From contig NEEC01000167.1 of the NCBI GenBank assembly GCA_002189035.1, forward strand, positions 1-38,747: a stretch of DNA of 38,747 nucleotides, in the 5' to 3' direction. Position 1 is the first letter of the stretch. Every line of letters begins with the position of its first letter. Source of the stretch: Utricularia gibba. Taxonomy: Eukaryota > Streptophyta > Magnoliopsida > Lamiales > Lentibulariaceae. This document shows positions 1-38,747 of the stretch, piece by piece. Under the pieces are notes generated by a model, which saw only the letters and a program-made list of their open reading frames with translations, was not told the origin of the DNA and did not search any database. Both the position numbers and the translations under genes were made by a program.

Positions 1-66
1 CTTTTTCCGGTTCCAAGTGCCCCCCAAGACCGCCTCCTCATGTATAAAGTATGTTGTTAAAAAAAT
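1..66 (+). repeat. Partial B monomer (3' end)
   Basis: The window opens inside a B tail (CTTTTTCCGGTTCCAAGTGC, then the CCGCC and TATAAAG stretch) that runs into the first A monomer. The tail carries the a1-type markers CCTCCTCATG and TATAAAGTATG. The array therefore continues to the left of the window. Confidence 0.9.
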
Positions 67-3000: not shown

Positions 3001-5648
3001 AAGCTGTTCCTTGAAAAACCATGTAGGCAACACCGAAAACCGAACGTTAATAAATACATCACTTTCTTTGCCGGGCTACAACTTACTTTGGGCCAAGGCC
3101 TAAGCTGACCTTTTTCCGGTTCCAAGTGCCCCCCAAGACCGCCTCCTCATGTATAAAGTATGTTGTTAAAAAAATCATGTGGGGTGCACGTGACATCGTA
3201 ATTTAAACAAATGCATCATTTTTTTTAATCGATTTGCATCCAGTTGACCTCATGAGCCATACAGAATCGGGGTCAAGGACCAAGTTCCCAGCGAGACTGG
3301 CCGCCACAAAACGAGAAGCGGTTCCTTGAAAAACCATGTAGGCAGCCCCCGAAAACCGAACGATAATAAATACATCACTTTATTTGCCGGACTACAACTA
3401 ACTCTCGGGCAAGCCAAACCTTACCTTTGTCCGTTCCAGGTGCCCCAAAGACCGCCTCTCAAGTATAAAGTAAGTTGTTGAAAAAATCATGTGGGGTGCA
3501 CGTGATATCGCAATTTAAACAAATGCAACATTGTATTCATCGATTTGCATCCTTTTGTCCTCATGAGCCATAAAGAATCGCGGGCCCGGACCAAGTTCCT
3601 AGCGAGACTGGCCGCCACAAAACGAGAAGCTGTTCCTTGAAAAACCATGTAGGCAACACCGAAAACCGAACGTTAATAAATACATCACTTTCTTTGCCGG
3701 GCTACAACTTACTTTGGGCCAAGGCCTAAGCTGACTTTTTCCGGTTCCAAGTGCACCCAAAGACCGCCTCTCAAGTATAAAGTAAGTTGTTAAAAAATCA
3801 TGTGGGGTGCACGTGACATCATAATTTAAACAAATGCATCATTTTTTTTAATCGATTTGCATCCAGTTGACCTCATGAGCCATACAGAATCGGGGTCAAG
3901 GACCAAGTTCCCAGCGAGACTGGCCGCCAAAAACGAGAAGCGGTTCCTTGAAAAACCATGTAGGCAGCCCCCGAAAACCGAACGATAATAAATACATCAC
4001 TTTATTTGCCGGACTACAACTACTTTGGGCAAGCCTAAGCCTTTTTCCGTTCCAGTGCCCCCAAAGACCGCCTCCTCAAGTATAAAGTAAGTTGTTGAAA
4101 AAATCATGTGGGGTGCACGTGATATCGCAATTTAAACAAATGCAACATTGTATTCATCGATTTGCATCCTTTTGTCCTCATGAGCCATAAAGAATCGCGG
4201 GCCCGGACCAAGTTCCTAGCGAGACTGGCCGCCACAAAACGAGAAGCTGTTCCTTGAAAAACCATGTAGGCAACACGGAAAACCGAACGTTAATAAATAC
4301 ATCACTTTCTTTGCCGGGCTACAACTTACTTTGGGCCAAGGCCTAAGCTGATCTTTTTCCGGTTCCAAGTGCACCCAAGACCGCCTCTCAAGTATAAAGT
4401 AAGTTGTTGAAAAAATCATGTGGGGTGCACGTGACATCATAATTTAAACAAATGGATCATTTTTTTTAATCGATTTGCATCCAGTTGACCTCATGAGCCA
4501 TACAGAATCGGGGTCAAGGACCAAGTTCCCAGCGAGACTGGCCGCCACAAAACGAGAAGCGGTTCCTTGAAAAACCATGTAGGCAGCCCCCGAAAACCGA
4601 ACGATAATAAATACATCACTTTATTTGCCGGACTACAACTCAAGCCAAACTTACTTTTTCCGTTCCAGTGCACCCAAGACCGCCCTCAGTATAAAGTAAG
4701 TTGTTGAAAAAATCATGTGGGGTGCACGTGATATCGCAATTTAAACAAATGCAACATTGTATTCATCGATTTGCATCCTTTTGTCCTCATGAGCCATAAA
4801 GAATCGCGGGCCCGGACCAAGTTCCTAGCGAGACTGGCCGCCACAAAAAAGAAGCTGTTCCTTGAAAAACCATGTAGGCAACACCGAAAACCGAACGTTA
4901 ATAAATACATCACTTTCTTTGCCGGGCTACAACTTACTTTGGGCCAAGGCCTAAGCTGACCTTTTTCCGGTTCCAAGTGCCCCCAAGACCGCCTCCTCAT
5001 GTATAAAGTAAGTTGTTAAAAAATCATGTGGGGTGCACGTGACATCGTAATTTAAACAAATGCATCATTTTTTTTAATCGATTTGCATCCAGTTGACCTC
5101 ATGAGCCATACAGAATCGGGGTCAAGGACCAAGTTCCCAGCGAGACTGGCCGCCACAAAACGAGAAGCGGTTCCTTGAAAAACCATGTAGGCAGCCCCCG
5201 AAAACCGAACGATAATAAATACATCACTTTATTTGCCGGACTACAACTAACTCTCGGCAAGCCAAACCTTACCTTTGTCCCGTTCCAGGTGCACCCAAAG
5301 ACCGCCTGCTCAAGTATAAAGTAAGTTGTTGAAAAAATCATGTGGGGTGCACGTGATATCGCAATTTAAACAAATGCAACATTGTATTCATCGATTTGCA
5401 TCCTTTTGTCCTCATGAGCCATAAAGAATCGCGGCCGGACCAAGTTCCTAGCGAGACTGGCCGCCACAAAACGAGAAGCTGTTCCTTGAAAAACCATGTA
5501 GGCAACACCGAAAACCGAACGTTAATAAATACATCACTTTCTTTGCCGGGCTACAACTTACTTTGGGCCAAGGCCTAAGCTGACTTTTTCCGGTTCCAAG
5601 TGCCCCAAAGACCGCCTTCTCAAGTATAAAGTAAGTTGTTGAAAAAAT
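67..5648 (+). repeat. Regular A-B block, left arm
   Basis: Eighteen monomers in strict A-B order. A starts: 67, 688, 1305, 1926, 2547, 3176, 3799, 4417, 5025. B starts: 376, 996, 1615, 2236, 2862, 3488, 4105, 4714, 5339. Monomer lengths are 297-315. A haplotypes are mixed. Markers CATCGTAAT plus AAATGCATC (a1) occur at 688, 2547, 3176 and 5025. CATCATAAT plus AAATGCATC (a2) occurs at 67, 1305 and 3799. CATCATAAT plus AAATGGATC (a3) occurs at 4417. The copy at 1926 is a recombinant, CATCGTAAT with AAATGGATC. The A tails at about 900-955 and 4018-4065 carry B-like sequence (AAGCCTAAGC followed by TTTTTCCG). The A at 4417 is shortened to 297 bp by deletions in its tail near 4640. Confidence 0.93.
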
Positions 5649-5946
5649 CATGTGGGGTGCACGTGACATCATAATTTAAACAAATGCATCATTTTTTTTA
5701 ATCGATTTGCATCCAGTTGACCTCATGAGCCATACAGAATCGGGGTCAAGGACCAAGTTCCGCGAGACTGGCCGCCACAAAACGAGAAGCGGTTCCTTGA
5801 AAAACATGTAGGCAGCCCCCGAAAACCGAACGATAATAAATACATCACTTTATTTGCCGGACTACAACTTACTTTGTAAGCTTTTTTCCGGTTCCAAGTG
5901 CCCCCAAGACCGCCTCCTCATGTATAAAGTAAGTTGTTGAAAAAAT
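5649..5946 (+). repeat. A/B hybrid monomer causing an A-A phase break
   Basis: This 298-bp unit begins as a2-type A (CACGTGACATCATAAT, GAAGCGGTTCC). After about 5868 it switches to B tail sequence (ACTTACTTTGTAAGC, TTTTTTCCGGTTCCAAGTGC). The next unit at 5947 is again A (CACGTGACATCGTAAT), so one B body is missing and the A-B alternation is broken. The simplest reading is an unequal exchange or deletion between an A and a neighbouring B at the shared GACTACAACT / GGCTACAACT segment. Confidence 0.88.
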
Positions 5947-8900
5947 CATGTGGGGTGCACGTGACATCGTAATTTAAACAAATGCATCATTTTTTTAATC
6001 GATTTGCATCCAGTTGACCTCATGAGCCATACAGAATCGGGGTCAAGGACCAAGTTCCCAGCGAGACTGGCCGCCACAAAACGAGAAGCGGTTCCTTGAA
6101 AAACCATGTAGGCAGCCCCCGAAAACCGAACGATAATAAATACATCACTTTAACTACAACTAAAAGCCAAACCTTTTCCCGTTCCAGTGCACCCAAAGAC
6201 CGCCTCTCAAGTATAAAGTAAGTTGTTGAAAAAATCATGTGGGGTGCACGTGATATCGCAATTTAAACAAATGCAACATTGTATTCATCGATTTGCATCC
6301 TTTTGTCCTCATGAGCCATAAAGAATCGCGGCCCGGACCAAGTTCCTAGCGAGACTGGCCGCCACAAAACGAGAAGCTGTTCCTTGAAAAACCATGTAGG
6401 CAACACCGAAAACCGAACGTTAATAAATACATCACTTTCTTTGCCGGGCTACAACTTACTTTGGGCCAAGGCCTAAGCTGACCTTTTTCCGGTTCCAAGT
6501 GCCCCCCAAGACCGCCTCCTCATGTATAAAGTAAGTTGTTAAAAAAAATCATGTGGGGTGCACGTGACATCGTAATTTAAACAAATGCATCATTTTTTTT
6601 AATCGATTTGCATCCAGTTGACCTCATGAGCCATACAGAATCGGGGTCAAGGACCAAGTTCCCAGCGAGACTGGCCGCCACAAAACGAGAAGCGGTTCCT
6701 TGAAAAACCATGTAGGCAGCCCCCGAAAACCGAACGATAATAATACATCACTTTATTTGCCGGACTACAACTAACTCTCGGGCAAGCCAAACCTTACCTT
6801 TGTCCCGTTCCAGGTGCACCCAAAGACCGCCTCTCAAGTATAAAGTAAGTTGTTGAAAAAATCATGTGGGTGCACGTGATATCGCAATTTAAACAAATGC
6901 AACATTGTATTCATCGATTTGCATCCTTTTGTCCTCATGAGCCATAAAGAATCGCGGGCCCGGACCAAGTTCCTAGCGAGACTGGCCGCCACAAAACGAG
7001 AAGCTGTTCCTTGAAAAACCATGTAGGCAACACCGAAAACCGAACGTTAATAAATACATCACTTTCTTTGCCGGGCTACAACTTACTTTGGGCCAAGGCC
7101 TAAGCTGATCTTTTTCCGGTTCCAAGTGCACCCAAAGACCGCCTTCTCAAGTATAAAGTAAGTTGTTGAAAAAATCATGTGGGGTGCACGTGACATCATA
7201 ATTTAAACAAATGATCATTTTTTTTAATCGATTTGCATCCAGTTGACCTCATGAGCCATACAGAATCGGGGTCAAGGACCAAGTTCCCAGCGAGACTGGC
7301 CGCCACAAACGAGAAGCGTTCCTTGAAAAACCATGTAGGCAGCCCCCGAAAACCGAACGATAATAAATACATCACTTTATTTGCCGGACTACAACTTAAC
7401 TTTGGCAAGCCAAACTGACCTTTTTCCGTTCCAGTGCCCCCAAGACCGCCTCTCAAGTATAAAGTAAGTTGTTGAAAAAATCATGTGGGGTGCACGTGAT
7501 ATCGCAATTTAAACAAATGCAACATTGTATTCATCGATTTGCATCCTTTTGTCCTCATGAGCCATAAAGAATCGCGGGCCCGGACCAAGTTCCTAGCGAG
7601 ACTGGCCGCCACAAAACGAGAAGCTGTTCCTTGAAAAACCATGTAGGCAACACCGAAAACCGAACGTTAATAAATACATCACTTTCTTTGCCGGGCTACA
7701 ACTTACTTTGGGCCAAGGCCTAAGCTGATCTTTTTCCGGTTCCAAGTGCACCCAAAGACCGCCTTCTCAAGTATAAAGTAAGTTGTTGAAAAAAATCATG
7801 TGGGGTGCACGTGACATCATAATTTAAACAAATGGATCATTTTTTTTAATCGATTTGCATCCAGTTGACCTCATGAGCCATACAGAATCGGGGTCAAGGA
7901 CCAAGTTCCCAGCGAGACTGGCCGCCACAAAACGAGAAGCGGTTCCTTGAAAAACCATGTAGGCAGCCCCCGAAAACCGAACGATAATAAATACATCACT
8001 TTATTTGCCGGACTACAACTAACTGGGCAAGCCAAACTTTTTCCGTTCCAGTGCACCCAAAGACCGCCTGCTCAAGTATAAAGTAAGTTGTTGAAAAAAT
8101 CATGTGGGGTGCACGTGATATCGCAATTTAAACAAATGCAACATTGTATTCATCGATTTGCATCCTTTTGTCCTCATGAGCCATAAAGAATCGCGGGCCC
8201 GGACCAAGTTCCTAGCGAGACTGGCCGCCACAAAACGAGAAGCTGTTCCTTGAAAAACCATGTAGGCAACACCGAAAACCGAACGTTAATAAATACATCA
8301 CTTTCTTTGCCGGGCTACAACTTACTTTGGGCCAAGGCCTAAGCTGACCTTTTTCCGGTTCCAAGTGCCCCCAAGACCGCCTCCTCATGTATAAAGTATG
8401 TTGTTAAAAAAAATCATGTGGGGTGCACGTGACATCGTAATTTAAACAATGCATCATTTTTTTTAATCGATTTGCATCCAGTTGACCTCATGAGCCATAC
8501 AGAATCGGGGTCAAGGACCAAGTTCCCAGCGAGACTGGCCGCCACAAAACGAGAAGCGGTTCCTTGAAAAACCATGTAGGCAGCCCCCGAAAACCGAACG
8601 ATAATAAATACATCACTTTATTTGCCGGACTACAACTAACTCTCGGTGCAAGCCAAACCTTACCTTTGTCCCGTTCCAGGTGCACCCAAAGACCGCCTGC
8701 TCAAGTATAAAGTAAGTTGTTGAAAAAATCATGTGGGGTGCACGTGATATCGCAATTTAACAAATGCAACATTGTATTCATCGATTTGCATCCTTTTGTC
8801 CTCATGAGCCATAAAGAATCGCGGGCCCGGACCAAGTTCCTAGCGAGACTGGCCGCCACAAAACGAGAAGCTGTTCCTTGAAAAACCATGTAGGCAACAC

Positions 8901-10890
8901 CGAAAACCGAACGTTAATAAATACATCACTTTCTTTGCCGGGCTACAACTTACTTTGGGCCAAGGCCTAAGCTGACCTTTTTCCGGTTCCAAGTGCCCCA
9001 AAGACCGCCTCTCAAGTATAAAGTAAGTTGTTGAAAAAAATCATGTGGGGTGCACGTGACATCATAATTTAAACAAATGCATCATTTTTTTTAATCGATT
9101 TGCATCCAGTTGACCTCATGAGCCATACAGAATCGGGGTCAAGGACCAAGTTCCCAGCGAGACTGGCCGCCACAAAACGAGAAGCGGTTCCTTGAAAAAC
9201 CATGTAGGCAGCCCCCGAAAACCGAACGATAATAAATACATCACTTTATTTGCCGGACTACAACTAACTTCGGTGCAAGCCAAACCTTTTTCCGTTCCAG
9301 TGCACCCCAAGACCGCCTGCTCAAGTATAAAGTAAGTTGTTGAAAAAATCATGTGGGGTGCACGTGATATCGCAATTTAAACAAATGCAACATTGTTTTC
9401 ATCGATTTGCATCCTTTTGTCCTCATGAGCCATAAAGAATCGCGGGCCCGGACCAAGTTCCTAGCGAGACTGGCCGCCACAAAACGAGAAGCTGTTCCTT
9501 GAAAAACCATGTAGGCAACACCGAAAACCGAACGTTAATAAATACATCACTTTCTTTGCCGGGCTACAACTTACTTTGGGCCAAGGCCTAAGCTGATCTT
9601 TTTCCGGTTCCAAGTGCACCCAAAGACCGCCTTCTCAAGTATAAAGTAAGTTGTTGAAAAAATCATGTGGGGTGCACGTGACATCATAATTTAAACAAAT
9701 GGATCATTTTTTTTAATCGATTTGCATCCAGTTGACCTCATGAGCCATACAGAATCGGGGTCAAGGACCAAGTTCCCAGCGAGACTGGCCGCCACAAAAC
9801 GAGAAGCGGTTCCTTGAAAAACCATGTAGGCAGCCCCCGAAAACCGAACGATAATAAATACATCACTTTATTTGCCGGACTACAACTAACTCTCGGCCAA
9901 GCCAAACTTACCTTTGTCCCGTTCCAGGTGCACCCAAAGACCGCCTGCTCAAGTATAAAGTAAGTTGTTGAAAAAATCATGTGGGGTGCACGTGATATCG
10001 CAATTTAAACAAATGCAACATTGTATTCATCGATTTGCATCCTTTTGTCCTCATGAGCCATAAAGAATCGCGGGCCCGGACCAAGTTCCTAGCGAGACTG
10101 GCCGCCACAAAACGAGAAGCTGTTCCTTGAAAAACCATGTAGGCAACACGAAAACCGAACGTTAATAAATACATCACTTTCTTTGCCGGGCTACAACTTA
10201 CTTTGGGCCAAGGCCTAAGCTGACCTTTTTCCGGTTCCAAGTGCCCCCAAGACCGCCTCCTCATGTATAAAGTATGTTGTTGAAAAAATCATGTGGGGTG
10301 CACGTGACATCGTAATTTAAACAAATGCATCATTTTTTTAATCGATTTGCATCCAGTTGACCTCATGAGCCATACAGAATCGGGGTCAAGGACCAAGTTC
10401 CAGCGAGACTGGCCGCCACAAAACGAGAAGCGGTTCCTTGAAAAACCATGTAGGCAGCCCCCGAAAACCGAACGATAATAAATACATCACTTTATTTGCC
10501 GGACTACAACTAGGCAAGCCAAACCTTTTTCCGTTCCAGTGCCCCAAAGACCGCCTCTCAAGTATAAAGTAAGTTGTTGAAAAAATCATGTGGGGTGCAC
10601 GTGAATCGCAATTTAAACAAATGCAACATTTAATCGATTTGCATCCTTTTGTCTCATGAGCCATAAAGAATCGCGGGCCCGGACCAAGTTCCTAGCGAGA
10701 CTGGCCGCCACAAAACGAGAAGCTGTTCCTTGAAAAACCATGTAGGCAACACGAAAACCGAACGTTAATAAATACATCACTTTCTTTGCCGGGCTACAAC
10801 TTACTTTGGGCCAAGGCCTAAGCTGACTTTTTCCGGTTCCAAGTGCCCCAAAGACCGCCTCTCAAGTATAAAGTAAGTTGTTGAAAAAAT
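5947..10890 (+). repeat. Regular A-B block
   Basis: A-B order resumes after the phase break. A starts: 5947, 6550, 7176, 7797, 8415, 9042, 9664, 10290. B starts: 6236, 6863, 7482, 8101, 8730, 9350, 9978, 10587. Haplotype a1 is at 5947, 6550, 8415 and 10290, a2 at 9042, and a3 or a3-like at 7176, 7797 and 9664. The A at 5947 (289 bp) has lost pieces of its tail near 6150-6180. The B at 10587 (304 bp) has lost bases around 10604-10655 (CACGTGAATCGC, AACATTTAATCG, GTCTCATGAG). Confidence 0.92.
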
Positions 10891-11232
10891 CATGTGGGGT
10901 GCACGTGATGCAAATTTAAACAAGCATGCAACCATTTTTTCATGATAATAAATACATCACTTTATTTGCCGGACTACAACTACTTTGTCCTCATGCAAGC
11001 CAAGTACGGGGCCCGCTTTGGACCAAGTTCGTAGCGAGACTGGCCGCCACAAAACGAGAAGCTGTTCCTTGAAAAACCATGTAGGCAACACCGAAAACCG
11101 AACGTTAATAAATACATCACTTTCTTTGCCGGGCTACAACTTACTTTGGGCCAAGGCCTAAGCTGATCTTTTTCCGGTTCCAAGTGCACCCAAAGACCGC
11201 CTCTCAAGTATAAAGTAAGTTGTTGAAAAAAT
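10891..11232 (+). repeat. Collapsed, scrambled A+B chimera (342 bp)
   Basis: The unit starts with an intact CATGTGGGGTGCACGTGA. It continues with aberrant TGCAAATTTAAACAAGCATG, jumps at about 10945 to A second-half sequence (ATAATAAATACATCACTTTA, GCCGGACTACAACT), and then runs through a mixed patch (TTTGTCCTCATGCAAGCCAA, GGGGCCCGCTTTGG). From about 11022 it is normal B body and tail. About one monomer's worth of sequence is missing compared with an intact A-B pair. The short patch order does not match either monomer, so several junctions or consensus errors are involved. Confidence 0.8.
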
Positions 11233-12149
11233 CATGTGGGGTGCACGTGACATCATAATTTAAACAAATGCATCATTTTTTTTAATCGATTTGCATCCAG
11301 TTGACCTCATGAGCCATACAGAATCGGGGTCAAGGACCAAGTTCCCAGCGAGACTGGCCGCACAAAACGAGAAGCGGTTCCTTGAAAAACCATGTAGGCA
11401 GCCCCGAAAACCGAACGATAATAAATACATCACTTTATTTGCCGGACTACAACTTAACTTTGGCAAGCCAAGCTTACCTTTTTCCGTTCCAGTGCCCCCA
11501 AGACCGCCTGCTCAAGTATAAAGTAAGTTGTTGAAAAAATCATGTGGGGTGCACGTGATATCGCAATTTAAACAAATGCAACATTGTATTCATCGATTTG
11601 CATCCTTTTGTCCTCATGAGCCATAAAGAATCGCGGGCCCGGACCAAGTTCCTAGCGAGACTGGCCGCCACAAAACGAGAAGCTGTTCCTTGAAAAACCA
11701 TGTAGGCAACACCGAAAACCGAACGTTAATAAATACATCACTTTCTTTGCCGGGCTACAACTTACTTTGGGCCAAGGCCTAAGTTTCCGATCCAAGTGCA
11801 CCCAAAGACCGCACCCTGACCGTATCAAGTAATAAAGTAAGTTGAAAAAAATCATGTGGGGTGCACGTGACATCATAATTTAAACAAATGGATCATTTTT
11901 TTTAATCGATTTGCATCCAGTTGACCTCATGAGCCATACAGAATCGGGGTCAAGGACCAAGTTCCCAGCGAGACTGGCCGCCACAAAACGAGAAGCGGTT
12001 CCTTGAAAAACCATGTAGGCAGCCCCCGAAAACCGAACGATAATAAATACATCACTTTATTTGCCGGACTACAACTACTAAGCCAAACCTTTTTCCGTCA
12101 GTGCACCCAAGACCGCCTGCTCAAGTATAAAGTAAGTTGTTGAAAAAAT
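11233..12149 (+). repeat. Three near-regular monomers A-B-A
   Basis: Units A 11233 (a2), B 11541 and A 11853 (a3). The B tail at about 11783-11850 is altered. The usual GCTGATCTTTTTCCGG is cut to TTTCCGATCC, and a short extra patch (GCACCCTGACCGTATC) precedes an irregular TAATAAAGTAAGTTG. The A at 11853 has a shortened tail (ACTACTAAGCCAAACC). Confidence 0.88.
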
Positions 12150-12522
12150 CATGTGGGGTGCACGTGATATCGCAATTTAAACAAATGCAACATTTAATCG
12201 ATTTGCATCCTTTTGTCCTCATGAGCCATAAAGAATCGTGCGGACCCAAAGACCCTTGCCTGCTGTACGCCAAGTAAAACGAAAGCATGTGGGGTGCACG
12301 TGATAAAAACGCATCATTTAAACAAATGCAACAGAAAACCGATTTAATAAATACATCACTTTCTTTGCCTTTGTCCTGCTACAACTTACTTTGGGCCAAG
12401 CCCGGACCAAGTTCCTAGCGAGACTGGCCGCCACAAAACGAGAAGCTGTTCCTTGAAAACCACCATTCCAAGTGCGACCCAAAGACCGCCTCCTCATGTA
12501 TAAAGTATGTTGTTGAAAAAAT
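12150..12522 (+). repeat. Scrambled B monomer(s) in two short units (136 and 237 bp)
   Basis: A B unit begins normally at 12150 but breaks at about 12238 (AATCGTGCGGACCCAAAGAC). A second CATGTGGGGTGCACGTGATA begins at 12286, only 136 bp later. That second unit has TAAAAACGCATCATTTAAAC, then jumps to second-half sequence (ATAAATACATCACTTTC, TACAACTTACTTTGGGCC) and back to first-half sequence (CCCGGACCAAGTTCCTAGCG). The expected order of these blocks is reversed here. It ends with CTTGAAAACCACCATTCC before a normal tail. The pieces are all recognisable B or A segments in a non-canonical order. Confidence 0.8.
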
Positions 12523-15009
12523 CATGTGGGGTGCACGTGACATCATAATTTAAACAAATGCATCATTTTTTTTAATCGATTTGCATCCAGTTGACCTCAT
12601 GAGCCATACAGAATCGGGGTCAAGGACCAAGTTCCCAGCGAGACTGGCCGCCACAAAACGAGAAGCGGTTCCTTGAAAAACCATGTAGGCAGCCCCGAAA
12701 ACCGAACGATAATAAATACATCACTTTATTTGCCGGACTACAACTAACTCTCGGCAAGCCAAACCTTACCTTTGTCCGTTCCAGGTGCACCCAAAGACCG
12801 CCTCTCAAGTATAAAGTAAGTTGTTGAAAAAATCATGTGGGGTGCACGTGATATCGCAATTTAAACAAATGCAACATTGTATTCATCGATTTGCATCCTT
12901 TTGTCCTCATGAGCCATAAAGAATCGCGGCCCGGACCAAGTTCCTAGCGAGACTGGCCGCCACAAAACGAGAAGCTGTTCCTTGAAAAACCATGTAGGCA
13001 ACACCGAAAACCGAACGTTAATAAATACATCACTTTCTTTGCCGGGCTACAACTTACTTTGGGCCAAGGCCTAAGCTGATCTTTTTCCGGTTCCAAGTGC
13101 ACCAAAGACCGCCTTCTCAAGTATAAAGTAAGTTGTTGAAAAAATCATGTGGGGTGCACGTGACATCATAATTTAAACAAATGGATCATTTTTTTTAATC
13201 GATTTGCATCCAGTTGACCTCATGAGCCATACAGAATCGGGTCAAGGACCAAGTTCCCAGCGAGACTGGCCGCCACAAAACGAGAAGCGGTTCCTTGAAA
13301 AACCATGTAGGCAGCCCCGAAAACCGAACGATAATAAATACATCACTTTATTTGCCGGACTACAACTAACTCTCGGTGCAAGCCAAACCTTACCTTTGTC
13401 CCGTTCCAGGTGCACCCAAAGACCGCCTGCTCAAGTATAAAGTAAGTTGTTGAAAAAATCATGTGGGGTGCACGTGATATCGCAATTTAAACAAATGCAA
13501 CATTGTATTCATCGATTTGCATCCTTTTGTCCTCATGAGCCATAAAGAATCGCGGGCCCGGACCAAGTTCCTAGCGAGACTGGCCGCCACAAAACGAGAA
13601 GCTGTTCCTTGAAAAACCATGTAGGCAACACCGAAAACCGAACGTTAATAAATACATCACTTTCTTTGCCGGGCTACAACTTACTTTGGGCCAAGGCCTA
13701 AGCTGATCTTTTTCCGGTTCCAAGTGCACCCAAAGACCGCCTTCTCATATAAAGTAAGTTGTTGAAAAAATCATGTGGGGTGCACGTGACATCATAATTT
13801 AAACAAATGGATCATTTTTTTTAATCGATTTGCATCCAGTTGACCTCATGAGCCATACAGAATCGGGGTCAAGGACCAAGTTCCCAGCGAGACTGGCCGC
13901 CACAAAACGAGAAGCGGTTCCTTGAAAAACCATGTAGGCAGCCCCCGAAAACCGAACGATAATAAATACATCACTTTATTTGCCGGACTACAACTAACTT
14001 TGGTGCAAGCCAAACTTTTCCGTTCCAGTGCCCCCAAAGACCGCCCTCAAGTATAAAGTAAGTTGTTGAAAAAATCATGTGGGTGCACGTGATATCGCAA
14101 TTTAAACAAATGCAACATTGTATTCATCGATTTGCATCCTTTTGTCCTCATGAGCCATAAAGAATCGCGGGCCCGGACCAAGTTCCTAGCGAGACTGGCC
14201 GCCACAAAACGAGAAGCTGTTCCTTGAAAAACCATGTAGGCAACACCGAAAACCGAACGTTAATAAATACATCACTTTCTTTGCCGGGCTACAACTTACT
14301 TTGGGCCAAGGCCTAAGCTGACCTTTTTCCGGTTCCAAGTGCCCCCCAAGACCGCCTCTCATGTATAAAGTATGTTGTTAAAAAAATCATGTGGGGTGCA
14401 CGTGACATCGTAATTTAAACAAATGCATCATTTTTTTTAATCGATTTGCATCCAGTTGACCTCATGAGCCATACAGAATCGGGGTCAAGGACCAAGTTCC
14501 CAGCGAGACTGGCCGCCACAAAACGAGAAGCGGTTCCTTGAAAAACCATGTAGGCAGCCCCCGAAAACCGAACGATAATAAATACATCACTTTATTGCCG
14601 GACTACAACTAACTCGGGCAAGCCAAACTTACCTTTGTCCCGTTCCAGGTGCACCCAAAGACCGCCTCTCAAGTATAAAGTAAGTTGTTGAAAAATCATG
14701 TGGGGTGCACGTGATATCGCAATTTAAACAAATGCAACATTGTATTCATCGATTTGCATCCTTTTGTCCTCATGAGCCATAAAGAATCGCGGGCCCGGAC
14801 CAAGTTCCTAGCGAGACTGGCCGCCACAAAACGAGAAGCTGTTCCTTGAAAAACCATGTAGGCAACACGAAAACCGAACGTTAATAAATACATCACTTTC
14901 TTTGCCGGGCTACAACTTACTTTGGGCCAAGGCCTAAGCTGATCTTTTTCCGGTTCCAAGTGCACCCAAAGACCGCCTTCTCAAGTATAAAGTAAGTTGT
15001 TGAAAAAAT
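12523..15009 (+). repeat. Regular A-B block
   Basis: A starts: 12523 (a2), 13146 (a3), 13772 (a3), 14388 (a1). B starts: 12834, 13460, 14076, 14697. Lengths are 304-314 bp. The copy at 14388 is the last clear a1 unit before a run of a3 that lasts to about 24.5 kb. Confidence 0.93.
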
Positions 15010-15564
15010 CATGTGGGGTGCACGTGACATCATAATTTAAACAAATGGATCATTTTTTTTTAATCGATTTGCATCCAGTTGACCTCATGAGCCATACAGA
15101 ATCGGGGTCAAGGACCAAGTTCCCAGCGAGACTGGCCGCATTCCTTGAAAAACCATGTAGGCATAATAAATACATCACTTTATTTGCCGACTACAACTAA
15201 CTCTCGGTGCAAGCCAAACCTTACCTTTGTCCCGTTCCAGGTGCACCCAAAGACCGCCTGCTCAAGTATAAAGTAAGTTGTTGAAAAAATCATCACGTGA
15301 TATCGCAATTTAAACAAATGCAACATCATCGATTTGCATCCTTTGTCCTCATGAGCCATAAAGAATCGCGGGCCCGGACCAAGTTCCTAGCGAGACTGGC
15401 CGCCACAAAACGAGAAGCTGTTCCTTGAAAAACCATGTAGGCAACACCGAAAACCGAACGTTAATAAATACATCACTTTCTTTGCCGGGCTACAACTTAC
15501 TTTGGGCCAAGGCCTAAGCTGATCTTTTTCCGGTTCAAGTGCACCCAAAGACCGCCTTCTCAAG
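15010..15564 (+). repeat. Internally deleted A (281 bp) and B (274 bp)
   Basis: The A at 15010 lacks the bases between GACTGGCCGC and TTCCTTGAAA (about 15139) and between CATGTAGGC and ATAATAAATA (about 15163). The B at 15291 starts with CATCACGTGATATCGC instead of CATGTGGGGTGCACGTGA, and it also lacks TTGTATT before the ClaI-like ATCGAT. Its end goes from TTCTCAAG directly to the next CATGTGGGG at 15565, so the TATAAAGTAAGTTGTTGAAA stretch is absent. All changes are deletions relative to intact neighbours. Confidence 0.85.
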
Positions 15565-18500
15565 CATGTGGGGTGCACGTGACATCATAATTTAAAAAAT
15601 GGATCATTTTTTTTAATCGATTTGCATCCAGTTGACCTCATGAGCCATACAGAATCGGGGTCAAGGACCAAGTTCCCAGCGAGACTGGCCGCCACAAAAC
15701 GAGAAGCGGTTCCTTGAAAAACCATGTAGGCAGCCCCGAAAACCGAACGATAATAAATACATCACTTTATTTGCCGGACTACAACTAACTTTGGTGCAAG
15801 CCAAAGCTTACCTTTGCAGGTGCCCCAAAGACCGCCTGCTCATGTATAAAGTAAGTTCTTAAAAAATCATGTGGGGTGCACGTGAATCGCAATTTAAACA
15901 AATGGATTCATCGATTTGCATCCTTTTGTCCTCATGAGCCATAAAGAATCGCGGGCCCGGACCAAGTTCCTAGCGAGACTGGCCGCCACAAAACGAGAAG
16001 CTGTTCCTTGAAAAACCATGTAGGCAACACGAAAAACCGAACGTTAATAAATACATCACTTTCTTTGCCGGGCTACAACTTACTTTGGGCCAAGGCCTAA
16101 GCTGATCTTTTTCCGGTTCCAAGTGCACCCAAAGACCGCCTTCTCAAGTATAAAGTAAGTTGTTGAAAAAATCATGTGGGGTGCACGTGACATCATAATT
16201 TAAACAAATGGATCATTTTTTTTAATCGATTTGCATCCAGTTGACCTCATGAGCCATACAGAATCGGGGTCAAGGACCAAGTTCCCAGCGAGACTGGCCG
16301 CCACAAAACGAGAAGCGGTTCCTTGAAAAACCATGTAGGCAGCCCCCGAAAACCGAACGATAATAAATACATCACTTTATTTGCCGGACTACAACTAAAA
16401 GCCAAACCTTACCTTTGTCCCGTTCCAGGTGCACCCAAAGACCGCCTGCTCAAGTATAAAGTAAGTTGTTGAAAAAATCATGTGGGGTGCACGTGATATC
16501 GCAATTTAAACAAATGCAACATTGTATTCATCGATTTGCATCCTTTTGTCCTCATGAGCCATAAAGAATCGCGGGCCCGGACCAAGTTCCTAGCGAGACT
16601 GGCCGCCACAAAACGAGAAGCTGTTCCTTGAAAAACCATGTAGGCAACACCGAAAACCGAACGTTAATAAATACATCACTTTCTTTGCCGGGCTACAACT
16701 TACTTTGGGCCAAGGCCTAAGCTGATCTTTTTCCGGTTCCAAGTGCACCCAAAGACCGCCTTCTCAAGTATAAAGTAAGTTGTTGAAAAAATCATGTGGG
16801 GTGCACGTGACATCATAATTTAAACAAATGGATCATTTTTTTTAATCGATTTGCATCCAGTTGACCTCATGAGCCATACAGAATCGGGGTCAAGGACCAA
16901 GTTCCCAGCGAGACTGGCCGCCACAAAACGAGAAGCGGTTCCTTGAAAAACCATGTAGGCAGCCCCGAAAACCGAACGATAATAAATACATCACTTTATT
17001 TGCCGGACTACAACTAACTCTCGGTGCAAGCCAAACCTTACCTTTGTCCCGTTCCAGGTGCACCCAAAGACCGCCTCTCAAGTATAAAGTAAGTTGTTGA
17101 AAAAATCATGTGGGGTGCACGTGATATCGCAATTTAAACAAATGCAACATTGTATTCATCGATTTGCATCCTTTTGTCCTCATGAGCCATAAAGAATCGC
17201 GGGCCCGGACCAAGTTCCTAGCGAGACTGGCCGCCACAAAACGAGAAGCTGTTCCTTGAAAAACCATGTAGGCAACACCGAAAACCGAACGTTAATAAAT
17301 ACATCACTTTCTTTGCCGGGCTACAACTTACTTTGGGCCAAGGCCTAAGCTGATCTTTTTCCGGTTCCAAGTGCACCCAAAGACCGCCTTCTCAAGTATA
17401 AAGTAAGTTGTTGAAAAAATCATGTGGGGTGCACGTGACATCATAATTTAAACAAATGGATCATTTTTTTTAATCGATTTGCATCCAGTTGACCTCATGA
17501 GCCATACAGAATCGGGGTCAAGGACCAAGTTCCCAGCGAGACTGGCCGCCACAAAACGAGAAGCGGTTCCTTGAAAAACCATGTAGGCAGCCCCCGAAAA
17601 CCGAACGATAATAAATACATCACTTTATTTGCCGGACTACAACTACTGGTGCAAGCCAAACCTTACCTTTGTCCCGTTCCAGTGCACCCAAAGACCGCCT
17701 GCTCAAGTATAAAGTAAGTTGTTGAAAAAAATCATGTGGGGTGCACGTGATATCGCAATTTAAACAAATGCAACATTGTATTCATCGATTTGCATCCTTT
17801 TGTCCTCATGAGCCATAAAGAATCGCGGGCCCGGACCAAGTTCCTAGCGAGACTGGCCGCCACAAAACGAGAAGCTGTTCCTTGAAAAACCATGTAGGCA
17901 ACACCGAAAACCGAACGTTAATAAATACATCACTTTCTTTGCCGGGCTACAACTTACTTTGGGCCAAGGCCTAAGCTGATCTTTTTCCGGTTCCAAGTGC
18001 CCCAAAGACCGCCTTCTCAAGTATAAAGTAAGTTGTTGAAAAAATCATGTGGGGTGCACGTGACATCATAATTTAAACAAATGGATCATTTTTTTTAATC
18101 GATTTGCATCCAGTTGACCTCATGAGCCATACAGAATCGGGGTCAAGGACCAAGTTCCCAGCGAGACTGGCCGCCACAAAACGAGAAGCGGTTCCTTGAA
18201 AAACCATGTAGGCAGCCCCCGAAAACCGAACGATAATAAATACATCACTTTATTTGCCGGACTACAACTAACTCTCGGCAAGCCAAACCTTACCTTTGTC
18301 CGTTCCAGGTGCACCCAAAGACCGCCTGCTCAAGTATAAAGTAAGTTGTTGAAAAAATCATGTGGGGTGCACGTGATATCGCAATTTAAACAAATGCAAC
18401 ATTGTATTCATCGATTTGCATCCTTTTGTCCTCATGAGCCATAAAGAATCGCGGGCCCGGACCAAGTTCCTAGCGAGACTGGCCGCCACAAAACGAGAAG

Positions 18501-20225
18501 CTGTTCCTTGAAAAACCATGTAGGCAACACCGAAAACCGAACGTTAATAAATACATCACTTTCTTTGCCGGGCTACAACTTACTTTGGGCCAAGGCCTAA
18601 GCTGATCTTTTTCCGGTTCCAAGTGCACCCAAAGACCGCCTTCTCAAGTATAAAGTAAGTTGTTGAAAAAATCATGTGGGGTGCACGTGACATCATAATT
18701 TAAACAAATGGATCATTTTTTTTAATCGATTTGCATCCAGTTGACCTCATGAGCCATACAGAATCGGGGTCAAGGACCAAGTTCCAGCGAGACTGGCCGC
18801 CACAAAACGAGAAGCGGTTCCTTGAAAAACCATGTAGGCAGCCCCCGAAAACCGAACGATAATAAATACATCACTTTATTTGCCGGACTACAACTAACTC
18901 GCAAGCCAAACTTACCTTTTCCCGTTCCAGGCACCCAAAGACCGCCTGCTCAAGTATAAAGTAAGTTGTTGAAAAAATCATGTGGGGTGCACGTGATATC
19001 GCAATTTAAACAAATGCAACATTGTATTAATCGATTTGCATCCTTTTGTCCTCATGAGCCATAAAGAATCGCGGGCCCGGACCAAGTTCCTAGCGAGACT
19101 GGCCGCCACAAAACGAGAAGCTGTTCCTTGAAAAACCATGTAGGCAACACCGAAAACCGAACGTTAATAAATACATCACTTTCTTTGCCGGGCTACAACT
19201 TACTTTGGGCCAAGGCCTAAGCTGATCTTTTTCCGGTTCCAAGTGCACCCAAAGACCGCCTTCTCAAGTATAAAGTAAGTTGTTGAAAAAATCATGTGGG
19301 GTGCACGTGACATCATAATTTAAACAAATGGATCATTTTTTTTAATCGATTTGCATCCAGTTGACCTCATGAGCCATACAGAATCGGGGTCAAGGACCAA
19401 GTTCCCAGCGAGACTGGCCGCCACAAAACGAGAAGCGGTTCCTTGAAAAACCATGTAGGCAGCCCCCGAAAACCGAACGATAATAAATACATCACTTTAT
19501 TTGCCGGACTACAACTAACTGGCAAGCCAAACCTTACCTTTGTCCAGGTGCACCCAAAGACCGCCTCTCAAGTATAAAGTAAGTTGTTGAAAAAATCATG
19601 TGGGGTGCACGTGATATCGCAATTTAAACAAATGCAACATTGTATTCATCGATTTGCATCCTTTTGTCCTCATGAGCCATAAAGAATCGCGGGCCCGGAC
19701 CAAGTTCCTAGCGAGACTGGCCGCCACAAAACGAGAAGCTGTTCCTTGAAAAACCATGTAGGCAACACCGAAAACCGAACGTTAATAAATACATCACTTT
19801 CTTTGCCGGGCTACAACTTACTTTGGGCCAAGGCCTAAGCTGACCTTTTTCCGGTTCCAAGTGCACCCAAAGACCGCCTTCCTCAAGTATAAAGTAAGTT
19901 GTTAAAAAAATCATGTGGGGTGCACGTGACATCATAATTTAAACAAATGCATCATTTTTTTTAATCGATTTGCATCCAGTTGACCTCATGAGCCATACAG
20001 AATCGGGGTCAAGGACCAAGTTCCCAGCGAGACTGGCCGCCACAAAACGAGAAGCGGTTCCTTGAAAAACCATGTAGGCAGCCCCCGAAAACCGAACGAT
20101 AATAAATACATCACTTTATTTGCCGGACTACAACTAACTCTCGTGCAAGCCAAACCTTACCTTTGTCCCGTTCCAGTGCACCCAAAGACCGCCTGCTCAA
20201 GTATAAAGTAAGTTGTTGAAAAAAT
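15565..20225 (+). repeat. Most homogeneous A-B block
   Basis: A starts: 15565, 16173, 16793, 17421, 18046, 18673, 19293, 19912. B starts: 15868, 16479, 17107, 17733, 18359, 18979, 19597. The seven A copies from 15565 to 19293 are all haplotype a3 (CATCATAAT, AAATGGATC). They follow B tails ending AAGCTGATCTTTTTCCGG and mostly CCGCCTTCTCAAG. The copy at 19912 is a2-like. B lengths are almost always 312-315. The A tail remains the only length-variable part (304-314). The B at 15868 is shortened near 15900-15912. Confidence 0.92.
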
Positions 20226-20391
20226 CATGTGGGGTGCACGTGATATCGTAATTTAAACAAATGCAATCGATTTGCGGAAAGCCATAATCATTCCTGGGGA
20301 GAAGCTGTTCCTTGAAAAACCATGTAGGCATAATCGCACAACTTTAAACAAACCCAAAGACCGCCTGTATAAAGTAAGTTGTTGAAAAAAT
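20226..20391 (+). repeat. Truncated B unit (166 bp)
   Basis: Begins CATGTGGGGTGCACGTGATA, then quickly degenerates (AAATGCAATCGATTTGCGG, AAAGCCATAATCATTCCTGG). It retains GAGAAGCTGTTCCTTGAAAA and CATGTAGGCA. It then reads TAATCGCACAACTTTAAAC, a short echo of the B head, and jumps to CCCAAAGACCGCCTGTATAA. About half a monomer is missing. The next unit, at 20392, is again B, so this fragment also disturbs A-B phase. Confidence 0.82.
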
Positions 20392-23279: not shown

Positions 23280-23761
23280 CATGTGGGGTGCACGTGATAT
23301 CGCAATTTAAACAAATGCAACATTGTATTCATCGATTTGCATCCTTTTGTCCTCATGAGCCATAAAGAATCGCGGGCCCGGACCAAGTTCCTAGCGAGAC
23401 TGGCCGCCACAAAACGAGAAGCTGTTCCTTGAAAAACCATGTAGGCAACACCGAAAACCGAACGTTAATAAATACATCACTTTCTTTGCCGGGCTACAAC
23501 TTACTTTGGGCCAAGGCCTAAGCTGATCTTTTTCCGGTTCCAAGTGCCCCAAAGACCGCCTTCTCAAGTATAAAGTAAGTTGTTGAAAAAATCATGTGGG
23601 GTGCACGTGACATCATAATTTAAACAAATGGATCATTTTTTTTAATCGATTTGCATCCAGTTGACCTCATGAGCCATACAGAATCGGGGTCAAGGACCAA
23701 GTTCCCAGCGAGACTGGCCGCCACAAAACGAGAAGCGGTTCCTTGAAAAACCATGTAGGCA

Positions 23762-23778
23762 GCCCCCGAAAACCGAAC
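23762..23778 (-). other. Weak CENP-B-box-like motif (A monomer)
   Basis: On the minus strand the sequence is GTTCGGTTTTCGGGGGC. Against the mammalian CENP-B core NTTCGNNNNANNCGGGN it matches 7 of the 9 fixed bases without gaps; A and the C of CGGG are changed. Alternatively, both TTCG and CGGGG are present with a spacer two bases short. B monomers have CGGTG here and match worse. This is a sequence resemblance only. Confidence 0.25.
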
Positions 23779-23884
23779 GATAATAAATACATCACTTTAT
23801 TTGCCGGACTACAACTAACTCTCGGTGCAAGCCAAACCTTACCTTTGTCCCGTTCCAGGTGCACCCAAAGACCGCCTGCTCAAG

Positions 23885-23896
23885 TATAAAGTAAGT
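23885..23896 (+). other. TATAAAG-TAAGT segment (one per monomer)
   Basis: TATAAAGTAAGT lies about 20 bp before each monomer start. It contains a TATA-like word overlapping a splice-donor-like AAAGTAAGT. Haplotype a1 boundaries usually read TATAAAGTATG. No gene follows, so it is recorded as a conserved word and not called a promoter. Confidence 0.3.
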
Positions 23897-23919
23897 TGTT
23901 GAAAAAATCATGTGGGGTG

Positions 23920-23927
23920 CACGTGAT
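23920..23927. other. E-box CACGTGAY (one per monomer)
   Basis: CACGTG starts 11 bases into the monomer and is followed by AC in A or AT in B. The complement, RTCACGTG, fits the bHLH E-box consensus and also the budding-yeast CDEI consensus RTCACRTG. It sits in an imperfect dyad, TCATGTG...CACGTGA, whose only mismatch would be a T-G wobble. It is present in nearly all units. It is lost at 23026 and in the headless remnants near 24809 and 28940. Confidence 0.6.
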
Positions 23928-23963
23928 ATCGCAATTTAAACAAATGCAACATTGTATTCATCG

Positions 23964-23971
23964 ATTTGCAT
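23964..23971 (-). other. Octamer motif ATGCAAAT (one per monomer)
   Basis: ATTTGCAT on the plus strand is the exact complement of the octamer ATGCAAAT bound by POU-domain factors. It overlaps the palindrome ATCGAT at 23960-23965. It is present in both A and B at offset about 55-56 and survives in several damaged units, for example 20944 and 23026. Binding is inferred from the motif only. Confidence 0.45.
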
Positions 23972-24001
23972 CCTTTTGTCCTCATGAGCCATAAAGAATC
24001 G

Positions 24002-24009
24002 CGGGCCCG
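24002..24009. other. B-specific palindrome CGGGCCCG
   Basis: Eight-base perfect palindrome in half 1 of B, replaced in A by GGGGTCAAGG. Several copies are one or two bases shorter (CGGCCCGG at 6330, 12928, 28784, 33505, 35903 and 37708; CGGCCGG at 5433 and 31667), and it is absent at about 34126, 35304 and 37120. Confidence 0.7.
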
Positions 24010-24536
24010 GACCAAGTTCCTAGCGAGACTGGCCGCCACAAAACGAGAAGCTGTTCCTTGAAAAACCATGTAGGCAACACCGAAAACCGAACGTTAATAA
24101 ATACATCACTTTCTTTGCCGGGCTACAACTTACTTTGGGCCAAGGCCTAAGCTGATCTTTTTCCGGTTCCAAGTGCACCCAAAGACCGCCTTCTCAAGTA
24201 TAAAGTAAGTTGTTGAAAAAATCATGTGGGGTGCACGTGACATCATAATTTAAACAAATGATCATTTTTTTTAATCGATTTGCATCCAGTTGACCTCATG
24301 AGCCATACAGAATCGGGGTCAAGGACCAAGTTCCCAGCGAGACTGGCCGCCACAAAACGAGAAGCGGTTCCTTGAAAAACCATGTAGGCAGCCCCCGAAA
24401 ACCGAACGATAATAAATACATCACTTTATTTGCCGGACTACAACTAACTCTCGGTGCAAGCCAAACCTTACCTTTGTCCCGTTCCAGGTGCACCCAAAGA
24501 CCGCCTCTCAAGTATAAAGTAAGTTGTTGAAAAAAT

Positions 24537-25130
24537 CATGTGGGTGCACGTGATATCGCAATTTAAACAAATGCAACATTGTATTCATCGATTTGCATCC
24601 TTTTGTCCTCATGAGCCATAAAGAATCGCGGGCCCGGACCAAGTTCCTAGCGAGACTGGCCGCCACAAAACGAGAAGCTGTTCCTTGAAAAACCATGTAG
24701 GCAACACCGAAAACCGAACGTGGGCCATAAATACATCTCACAACGTTTGCCGGGCTACAACTTTTTGGGCCAAGGCCTAAGCTGACGTTTCCGGTTCCAA
24801 GTGCAACCCATCATTTTTTTAATCGATTTGCATCCAGTTGACCTCATGAGCCATACAGAATCGGGGTCAAGGACCAAGTTCATCCAGCGAGACTGGCCGT
24901 TCCACAAAACGAGAAGCGGTTCCTTGAAAAACCATGTAGGCAGCCCCGAAAACCGAACGATAATAAATACATCACTTTATTTGCCGGACTACAACTAACT
25001 CTCGGTGCAAGCCAAACCTTACCTTTGTCCCGTTCCAGGTGCACCCAAAGACCGCCTGCTCAGTATAAAGTAAGTTGTTGGTGCACCCAAAGACCGCCTG
25101 CTCAAGTATAAAGTAAGTTGTTGAAAAAAT
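24537..25130 (+). repeat. B with altered second half fused to a headless A
   Basis: The B at 24537 is normal up to CCGAACG (24720), then reads TGGGCCATAAATACATCTCA and CAACGTTTGCCGGG, a local rearrangement. Its tail stops at AAGTGCAACC and joins directly to an A body at CATCATTTTTTTAATCG (24809). The tail end, the TATAAAG segment and the A head with its E-box are absent. The A also has small insertions (AAGTTCATCCAGCG, GGCCGTTCCACAAAAC). Confidence 0.83.
25038..25122 (+). repeat. 42-bp tandem duplication in the A tail
   Basis: GGTGCACCCAAAGACCGCC through TAAGTTGTT occurs twice in immediate succession, at 25038-25079 and 25080-25122. The only difference is CAGTATAAAG versus CAAGTATAAAG. It is a sub-monomer duplication of the boundary segment without the following GAAAAAATCATG. 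Confidence 0.92.
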
Positions 25131-26029
25131 CATGTGGGGTGCACGTGATATCGCAATTTAAACAAATGCAACATCATCGATTTGCATCCTTTTGTCCTCA
25201 TGAGCCATAAAGAATCGCGGGCCCGGACCAAGTTCCTAGCGAGACTGGCCGCCACAAAACGAGAAGCTGTTCCTTGAAAAACCATGTAGGCAACACCGAA
25301 AACCGAACGTTAATAAATACATCACTTTCTTTGCCGGGCTACAACTTACTTTGGGCCAAGGCCTAAGCTGACCTTTTTCCGGTTCCAAGTGCCCCAAGAC
25401 CGCCTTCTCAAGTATAAAGTAAGTTGTTGAAAAAATCATGTGGGGTGCACGTGACATCATAATTTAAACAAATGCATCATTTTTTTTAATCGATTTGCAT
25501 CCAGTTGACCTCATGAGCCATACAGAATCGGGGTCAAGGACCAAGTTCCCAGCGAGACTGGCCGCCACAAAACGAGAAGCGGTTCCTTGAAAAACCATGT
25601 AGGCAGCCCCCGAAAACCGAACGATAATAAATACATCACTTTATTTGCCGGACTACAACTAACTCTCGGTGCAAGCCAAACCTTACCTTTGTCCCGTTCC
25701 AGGTGCACCCAAAGACCGCCTGCTCAAGTATAAAGTAAGTTGTTGAAAAAATCATGTGGGGTGCACGTGATATCGCAATTTAAACAAATGCAACATTGTA
25801 TTCATCGATTTGCATCCTTTTGTCCTCATGAGCCATAAAGAATCGCGGGCCCGGACCAAGTTCCTAGCGAGACTGGCCGCCACAAAACGAGAAGCTGTTC
25901 CTTGAAAAACCATGTAGGCAACACCGAAAACCGAACGTTAATAAATACATCACTTTCTTTGCCGGGCTACAACTTACTTTGGGCCAAGGCCTAAGCTTTT
26001 TTCCGGTTCCAAGTGCACCCAAAGTGGAT
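25131..26029 (+). repeat. Regular B-A-B stretch with truncated last tail
   Basis: B 25131, A 25437 (a2), B 25753. The last B is cut to 277 bp. Its tail ends GTGCACCCAAAGTGGATCAT and joins the next A head, losing CCGCC through TTGAAAAA. Confidence 0.9.
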
Positions 26030-37300: not shown

Positions 37301-38747
37301 TCATGTATAAAGTAAGTTGTTAAAAAATCATGTGGGGTGCACGTGACATCGTAATTTAAACAAATGGATTTGCATCCAGTTGACCTCATGAGCCATACAG
37401 AATCGGGGTCAAGGACCAAGTTCCCAGCGAGACTGGCCGCCACAAAACGAGAAGCGGTTCCTTGAAAAACCATGTAGGCAGCCCCGAAAACCGAACGATA
37501 ATAAAACATCACTTTATTTACTACAACTAACTCTTGCAAGCCAAACCTTACCTTTGTCCGTTCCAGGTGCACCCAAGACCGCCTCTCAAGTATAAAGTAA
37601 GTTGTTGAAAAAATCATGTGGGGTGCACGTGATATCGCAATTTAAACAAATGCAACATTGTATTCATCGATTTGCATCCTTTTGTCCTCATGAGCCATAA
37701 AGAATCGCGGCCCGGACCAAGTTCCTAGCGAGACTGGCCGCCACAAAACGAGAAGCTGTTCCTTGAAAAACCATGTAGGCAACACCGAAAACGAACGTTA
37801 ATAAAACATCACTTTCTTTGCCGGGCTACAACTTACTTTGGGCCAAGGCCTAAGCTGACTTTCCGGTTCAAGTGCACCCAAAGACCGCCTTCTCATGTAT
37901 AAAGTAAGTTTTAAAAAATCATGTGGGTGCACGTGACATCATAATTTAAACAAATGATCATTTTTTTTAATCGATTTGCATCCAGTTGACCTCATGAGCC
38001 ATACAGAATCGGGGTCAAGGACCAAGTTCCCAGCGAGACTGGCCGCCACAAAACGAGAAGCGGTTCCTTGAAAAACCATGTAGGCAGCCCCCGAAACCGA
38101 ACGATAATAAATACATCACTTTATTTCCGACTACAACTAACTCTCGGTGCAAGCCAAACCTTACCTTTGTCCCGTTCCAGGTGCACCCAAAGACCGCCTG
38201 CTCAAGTATAAAGTAAGTTGTTGAAAAAATCATGTGGGGTGCACGTGATATCGCAATTTAAACAAATGCAACATTGTATTCATCGATTTGCATCCTTTTG
38301 TCCTCATGAGCCATAAAGAATCGCGGGCCCGGACCAAGTTCCTAGCGAGACTGGCCGCCACAAAACGAGAAGCTGTTCCTTGAAAATGTAGGCAACACCG
38401 CCGAACGTTAATAAATACATCACTTTCTTTGCCGGGCTACAACTTACTTTGGGCCAAGGCCTAAGCTGATCTTTTTCCGGTTCCAAGTGCACCCAAAGAC
38501 CGCCTTCTCAAGTATAAAGTAAGTTGTTGAAAAAATCATGTGGGGTGCACGTGACATCATAATTTAAACAAATGGATCATTTTTTTTAATCGATTTGCAT
38601 CCAGTTGACCTCATGAGCCATACAGAATCGGGGTCAAGGACCAAGTTCCCAGCGAGACTGGCCGCCACAAAACGAGAAGCGGTTCCTTGAAAAACCATGT
38701 AGGCAGCCCCCGAAAACCGAACGATAATAAATACATCACTTTTTGCC
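34338..38747 (+). repeat. Regular order but indel-rich block, running off the window
   Basis: A starts: 34338, 34912, 35501, 36104, 36727, 37329, 37920, 38537. B starts: 34610, 35213, about 35811, 36417, 37030, 37615, 38231. A-B order is strict, but lengths fall to 272-313 because of scattered small losses. Examples are AAAAAAATGTGGGG at 35805 (TC lost), GAAGCTGAAAAACATG at 35341, CCGAAAACGAACG-type dropouts at 37790, ATAAAACATC at 37803, and ATGGATTTGCATCC at 37363 (T tract and ATCGAT removed). The final A is cut by the window edge at 211 bp. Confidence 0.9.

Follow-up and report, generated by a model that had tools for sequence, protein, structure and literature searches.

The window, by which we mean the whole 38,747-bp stretch of Utricularia gibba DNA that was analysed (contig NEEC01000167.1; G000:C20, or C20, in our numbering), is a satellite array along its entire length. 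Half units located on the plus strand with half-unit profiles cover 99.1% of it. The features referred to below, with monomers A and B as the worked example, are the following.

1 to 38747, plus strand: satellite array of 129 half-1 and 128 half-2 units (half-profile search)
23583 to 24212, plus strand: A-B higher-order unit of 630 bp (recurrence by identity at lag 2)
23583 to 23742, plus strand: half 1 of monomer A (sequence, anchors)
23743 to 23898, plus strand: half 2 of monomer A (sequence, anchors)
23899 to 24057, plus strand: half 1 of monomer B (sequence, anchors)
24058 to 24212, plus strand: half 2 of monomer B (sequence, anchors)
23583 to 23634, plus strand: first 52 bases of a half unit, where conservation across halves and subfamilies is highest
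23604 to 23609, plus strand: CACGTG (E-box/G-box) in half 1 of A (sequence)
23920 to 23925, plus strand: CACGTG in half 1 of B (sequence)

Array structure and levels of repetition

Six gaps of more than 15 bp lie between the units found with the half profiles, the largest of them 76 bp, and Tandem Repeats Finder reports periods of 306-315 bp across 1-34,556 (with breaks of at most about 0.8 kb) and again across 37,363-38,742. The median length in the window is 159 bp for half 1 (n=108 measured) and 153 bp for half 2 (n=105 measured). Among 248 close junctions between units, 123 pass cleanly from half 1 to half 2 and 119 cleanly from half 2 to half 1; five more alternate but are truncated, and a single one joins two like halves, at a truncated unit (24924-25120). 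Same-half junctions also occur elsewhere, one clean and three truncated in the left array of contig C510 and one clean and one truncated in C481. The arrangement is that of a satellite, a long head-to-tail array of one unit, and more specifically that of a dimeric satellite, in which two homologous halves alternate in fixed order.

The sequence-only reading had proposed a hierarchy of about 157, 314 and 624 bp, and lag identities in the window reproduce it, with the third level at about 628 bp. Over 87 monomers, mean identity at lags 1 to 4 is 0.846, 0.935, 0.858 and 0.924, respectively (monomers of 280-335 bp were kept and others left out, so that a few lags are off by one). Monomers n apart are thus more alike than neighbours in the window, as they are in C25 (n=2 in both) and in C490 (n=4), where a lag-4 identity of 0.988, based on four monomer pairs in 3 kb, marks a 1,250-bp four-monomer unit. 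In C503 and the left array of C510 the lag identities are flat and no level above about 314 bp was found. Near-identical copies of the 630-bp A-B unit were found in C20, C25, C481, C484, C485 and C489.

Several minor observations belong here. A local 42-bp tandem duplication lies at the end of a half 2 (25038-25123), and a 76-bp stretch (20276-20351) is matched by neither half profile. On C47, a 22-mer of the diverged family recurs mostly every 1,250 bp or so over almost 80 kb, which agrees with the four-monomer unit of C490. Rfam and tRNA searches of the window gave no match, and an origin from a known RNA or from rDNA was rejected on the absence of Rfam matches in the window and in 14 contig-end samples. 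CpG loss as a sign of methylation was uninformative (the CpG observed/expected ratio was 0.94 for the window, and four further samples gave 0.92-1.06), and an AA/TT periodicity of about 10 bases was dropped, its peaks at about 9.8 and 10.8 being confounded by the repeat itself.

Homology and history of the two halves

It had been proposed that each 314-bp monomer is a diverged doubling of a unit of about 157 bp, a claim that is borne out by shuffle tests and by alignments of diverged subfamilies. The positions first quoted for the starts of the halves (23593, 23752, 23909 and 24067) are exact for the CATG of the anchor, which next occurs at 24223 (spacings 159, 157, 158 and 156), but they are not the starts of TTGAAAAA, which in A and B lie at 23583, 23743, 23899 and 24058. 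The pairing of AAATGGATCA at 23626 with AAATACATCA at 23785 was correct, both being present and in register. The match suggested near the ends of the halves is out of register, with an offset of 118 bases for GTTCCCAG in half 1 and of 109 bases for GTTCCAGG in half 2; the alignment partner of half-1 GTTCC is half-2 GTGCA.

When the window half consensuses (built from 109 and 102 copies) were aligned globally, none of 1000 dinucleotide-shuffled pairs reached their score under any of three scoring schemes, which is the outcome expected of a doubled unit; in local alignment 0, 0 and 29 of 1000 did so. For a second window consensus the half-half score was reached by 2/2000 shuffles globally and 3/2000 locally, and when the monomer consensus was compared with itself without gaps, a shift of 157 gave the best match among all shifts. 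Within the window this similarity rests mostly on the first 25 bases and is weak beyond them. Removal of the first 18, 20 or 25 bases let 20, 8 and 13 of 1000 shuffles reach the score globally (43, 46 and 33 of 1000 locally), and the second consensus without its first 25 bases was reached by 80/2000 globally. These last values (13/1000 and 80/2000) are what might be expected if the halves were non-homologous along their length and had only a short TTGAAAAA-CATGT box in common, by chance or through selection for a protein site.

The diverged subfamilies contradict such non-homology, which on their sequences we consider very improbable. We found that: (i) the halves of C490 and of the right array of C510 align with 97/161 and 96/164 identical columns, respectively (z 8.1 each, 0/2000 shuffles), and keep z 7.0 with 0/2000 shuffles once the first 25 bases are removed; (ii) in a diverged copy close to the junction of C510, half 1 is matched in register by the half-2 profile over model positions 4-140 (16.0 bits); (iii) all nine consensus pairs give z of at least 3.8 in global alignment, with at most 2/2000 shuffles reaching any pair; and (iv) the true register outscores every tried rotation of half 2 in all nine pairs. 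Without the first 25 bases, the number of shuffles per 2000 that reached the score was 80 for the window, 49 for C481, 10 for C485, eight for the left array of C510, five for C25, two for C489 and none for C8, C490 and the right array of C510.

The sequences further indicate that the doubling happened once, ahead of the separation of the subfamilies, because identity between like halves of the window and C490 (0.70 for half 1, 0.81 for half 2) is above every half-half value (0.53-0.60) and because, in a tree of 18 half consensuses, the half-1 and half-2 sequences fall into separate groups (support 1.000). Conservation is uneven along the unit: 24 of the 41 columns invariant among eight half consensuses fall within the first 52 of 159 columns (p 0.003 by permutation for the best stretch of this kind). 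This part may be a putative protein site or the trace of past exchange between the halves.

According to the sequence-only reading only half 1 had kept the E-box, a wording that assumes an E-box in the ancestor. In the window CACGTG is indeed present in 127/127 half-1 units covering that part and in no half-2 unit; elsewhere it was counted 65 times in the left array of C510 (72 half-1 units) and five times in the C8 sample (10 half-1 units). The samples from C490 and the right array of C510 contain no CACGTG, and their diverged half-1 consensus reads CTCATG at this place. An ancestral E-box is unsupported, since CACGTG is missing from the half-2 consensus in every sample and from half 1 in one family, and a gain inside one half-1 lineage would be at least as likely. 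Special conservation of the E-box was also rejected, as 112/159 half-1 columns in the window are at least 99% conserved.

These results show a single duplication of a unit near 157 bp, whose two halves now have 53-60% identical columns and whose product, the 314-bp pair, became the new repeating unit. Unequal exchange and gene conversion would now act on the pair and its multiples and rarely between halves, and such turnover could yield the window's A-B unit (about 628 bp), the 1,250-bp four-monomer unit in another subfamily and near-uniform monomers elsewhere. That the halves seldom exchange is suggested by the 242 clean alternating junctions against one same-half junction in the window. We infer that the halves are too different, or too constrained, for frequent exchange and that the pair is the copied unit.

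Abundance and position in the genome

A half-1 pattern with at most one mismatch matches 17,524 times genome-wide (reversed control, 2). The other patterns, whose controls all gave 0, were a half-2 30-mer with at most three mismatches (16,031 matches), a half-2 19-mer with at most one (12,513), an exact degenerate half-2 29-mer (9,070) and an exact 22-mer of the diverged family (4,420). About 17,500 monomers of about 312 bp amount to some 5.5 Mb, or about 5% of the 100.09-Mb assembly of 516 contigs, a copy number as high as satellite DNA would be expected to have. This is more likely an underestimate than an overestimate because the half-1 pattern misses some of the half-1 units detected by profile (it recovers 110/129 in the window, 49/72 in the left array of C510, 28/33 in C25 and 10/10 in both C490 and C8). 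Seven small contigs, read in parts (C7, C8, C25, C481, C484, C485 and C489), are satellite wherever read, and units cover 99.0-99.9% of the sampled satellite stretches.

The four leading contigs, C1 to C4 (8.5, 6.19, 5.35 and 3.85 Mb), were taken as complete chromosomes; according to the passage on the assembly in PMC8333044, 18 contigs of U. gibba exceed 1 Mb and four of them are putatively entire chromosomes. None of five satellite patterns has an exact match on C1-C4 among the matches listed (the first 100, in contig order), where the first contig to appear is C7 for four patterns and C37 for the diverged-family pattern. Exact matches on C1-C4 would head such a list, whereas mismatched copies could escape it. 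Given the sensitivity of the exact degenerate 29-mer, which in nine samples ranged from 2/9 half-2 units (C490) to 109/128 (window), a sizeable array of the sampled kind on these contigs would hardly escape. The satellite is, therefore, not one of every centromere, and it lacks the presence on every chromosome that is usual, if not required, for a centromeric satellite.

We also surveyed the ends of 23 large contigs, namely those met through a retroelement search and through our samples, reading 400-10,000 bases at each end (the starts of C1-C3 through the list of telomere matches only). Seven of the 46 ends, in five contigs, carry the satellite: the end of C213, the end of C402, both ends of C460, both ends of C510 and the start of C414 (its first 160 bp or so). 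The other 39 surveyed ends are without it; the sizes of C1, C2, C409, C505, C507 and C515 are multiples of 2,500, so that their ends may be trimmed. The orientation of the arrays varies between contigs. At the start of C414, the satellite is joined directly to a stretch that, by eye, resembles a retroelement gag with a zinc knuckle, as if a retroelement had inserted at or in an array.

The telomeric repeat TTTAGGG is present in at least nine copies at 14 surveyed ends, and the satellite was found at none of the 11 of these that were tested with the profiles, the other three being the starts of C1-C3. Fewer copies are found at the ends of C480 (six) and C508 (five), and the last bases of C507 are a 7-base unit repeated 4.6 times. 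In C213 the telomere is at the start and the satellite at the inner end, 3.7 Mb apart.

Possible relation to centromeres

C510 carries the satellite at both ends. The left array is on the minus strand and fills roughly the first 32,070 bp, of which 1-20,000, 25,001-25,600 and the part from 30,001 were read; the right array takes up the final 1.8 kb, on the plus strand. Between them lie about 348 kb, where 17 slices of 600 bp and three 8-kb slices contained no satellite. Next to the right array is an element in which ATHILA ORF1, integrase and RNase H domains were recognised, and next to the left array are reverse transcriptase and RNase H domains; the two flanking elements are 86% alike over 1.4 kb. 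The domain model PF00077, tried as a retroelement marker, gave no match in the genome.

Relatives of these elements, at 84-94% identity, occur on C1, C4, C413, C451 and C505 among others (40 of 119 and 40 of 171 candidates were scored). On C1, which is 8.5 Mb long, all those among the matches listed (8/8 and 7/7 rows, of which some are pieces of a single copy) fall within 4.79-5.54 Mb. On C2, C3, C4 and C451 they are more scattered, so that they clearly mark one cluster only on C1, and they also occur on contigs without satellite at their ends. All five satellite-bearing contigs have some listed relative no more than about 0.55 Mb from a satellite end.

In centromere arrays that are layered, diverged copies lie toward the edges, and the left junction of C510 has this appearance: the scores of its units against the window profiles fall from 0.70-0.88 bits per base (1-25.6 kb) to 0.53-0.58 (30-32 kb, adjoining the junction; 12 units in the last two kb). 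Divergence is not only an edge matter, since C490 and C503 are diverged throughout the stretches read and the spacing on C47 is that of a diverged array too.

The sequence-only reading had guessed at a centromeric satellite from the unit size. The inner contig ends and the Athila-like neighbours at C510 speak for this guess, and the lack of an exact match on C1-C4 among the matches listed speaks against its general form. We favor the possibility, with a probability of roughly 0.72, that the window is a piece of a centromeric or pericentromeric satellite present on some chromosomes, with an ancient doubled unit and turnover at the level of the pair. The arrays would then be heterochromatin at or beside the centromere of those chromosomes and, each half being of nucleosome length, may carry putative CENH3 nucleosomes there.

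The strongest competitor, which we find less probable though worth serious attention, is that the arrays are flanking pericentromeric heterochromatin only and that the CENH3 nucleosomes sit on retroelement-rich DNA of all chromosomes. This would account for C1-C4 being without a listed exact match and for the Athila-like cluster on C1, where 11 slices of 2 kb taken from 4.85-5.42 Mb contain neither the satellite nor any tandem unit longer than 23 bases. It also agrees with PMC8333044, which, in the passage concerned, describes centromeric regions without satellites. Against it, the total of about 5.5 Mb and the near-complete unit coverage of the sampled stretches resemble active arrays as well. 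Abundant, near-continuous satellite is characteristic of active plant centromere arrays.

An idea that we put forward tentatively, and at rather less than even odds, is that one karyotype holds two kinds of centromere: satellite-free and retroelement-rich ones on at least four chromosomes, which would for this reason have assembled end to end, and ones with the doubled-unit satellite on the others, which would for this reason be broken. The split might follow the parental subgenomes. The 2021 paper links features of the putative centromeric regions of U. gibba to an absence of satellites, citing its reference 15, presumably the genome paper, for this in the passage concerned (PMC8333044). Such a view may be biased, and could be a selection effect, because it is chromosomes free of long arrays that can be assembled completely. 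If the idea were true, satellite-free and satellite centromeres in one nucleus would permit a direct comparison of both kinds. For this reason the position of the satellite in the genome is of more interest than its inner doubling, the doubled nucleosome-sized design being a familiar one.

A subtelomeric or knob-like satellite with no relation to centromeres would likewise fit its not being listed on C1-C4 and the differing orientation of arrays between contigs. We consider it unlikely, as none of the 11 profile-tested telomeric ends has the satellite, 3.7 Mb separate telomere and satellite on C213, and the neighbours at C510 are Athila-like. An origin of the arrays in misassembly or in a second organism of the culture could be imagined from C20 being satellite throughout and from the partly read small contigs, but is highly improbable with C510 joining satellite to elements whose close relatives lie on C1, C4, C413, C451 and C505, and C213 joining it to a plant telomere arm.

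Taken as a (peri)centromeric satellite, the repeat is an ordinary kind of satellite DNA. Human alpha satellite has a nucleosome-sized unit, an old alternation of two types, array-specific higher-order units and diverged edge copies, and the present satellite is like its dimers in all four respects; it differs in that its halves are more diverged, and the sequences are not known to be related. The CEN180 repeat of Arabidopsis, CentO of rice and CentC of maize are 155-180 bp repeats that form arrays with Ty3/Gypsy elements (Athila in Arabidopsis). Judged by description, the likeness to these lies in the range of unit length and the association with Ty3/Gypsy elements, and the difference in that they are not known to be other than single-unit repeats, whereas here the unit is doubled.

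Closer at hand, in the same plant family, is Gn7c161 of Genlisea nigrocaulis, a 161-bp satellite which, according to the passage on it in PMC4542322, gives signals on each metaphase chromosome and co-localises with an antibody specific to centromeres (work that the paper cites as in review). A unit near 160 bp is common to both. By description, which is the basis of this comparison, Gn7c161 differs in being a 161-bp repeat on each metaphase chromosome, as against a 314-bp pair with no exact match on C1-C4 among the matches listed. In the open-access literature on repeats and centromeres of Utricularia and Lentibulariaceae we found no description of this satellite; a prior description is possible.

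Other repeats were met at the contig ends. A second tandem repeat, with a unit of about 340-355 bp (Tandem Repeats Finder gives 347 in C480) and no Rfam match, lies at six of the 46 surveyed ends, all without the window's satellite (the starts of C480, C402 and C508 and the ends of C451, C244 and C255). The small contig C200 also starts with this repeat, and C402 has it at its start and the window's satellite at its end. The start of C255 (1-600) holds a different tandem repeat, its copies about 153-162 bp apart and 92-93% alike, which the half profiles do not match. A GC-rich (64-76%) family lies at the starts of C495, C500, C512 and C502, with tandem units of about 52 and 131 bp in two members and marginal matches only to the half-2 profile, in two members (8.6 and 6.4 bits). 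Finally, the starts of C100, C400, C505 and C507 have sequence in common, and this repeat may also break the assembly because it is common to four contig starts.
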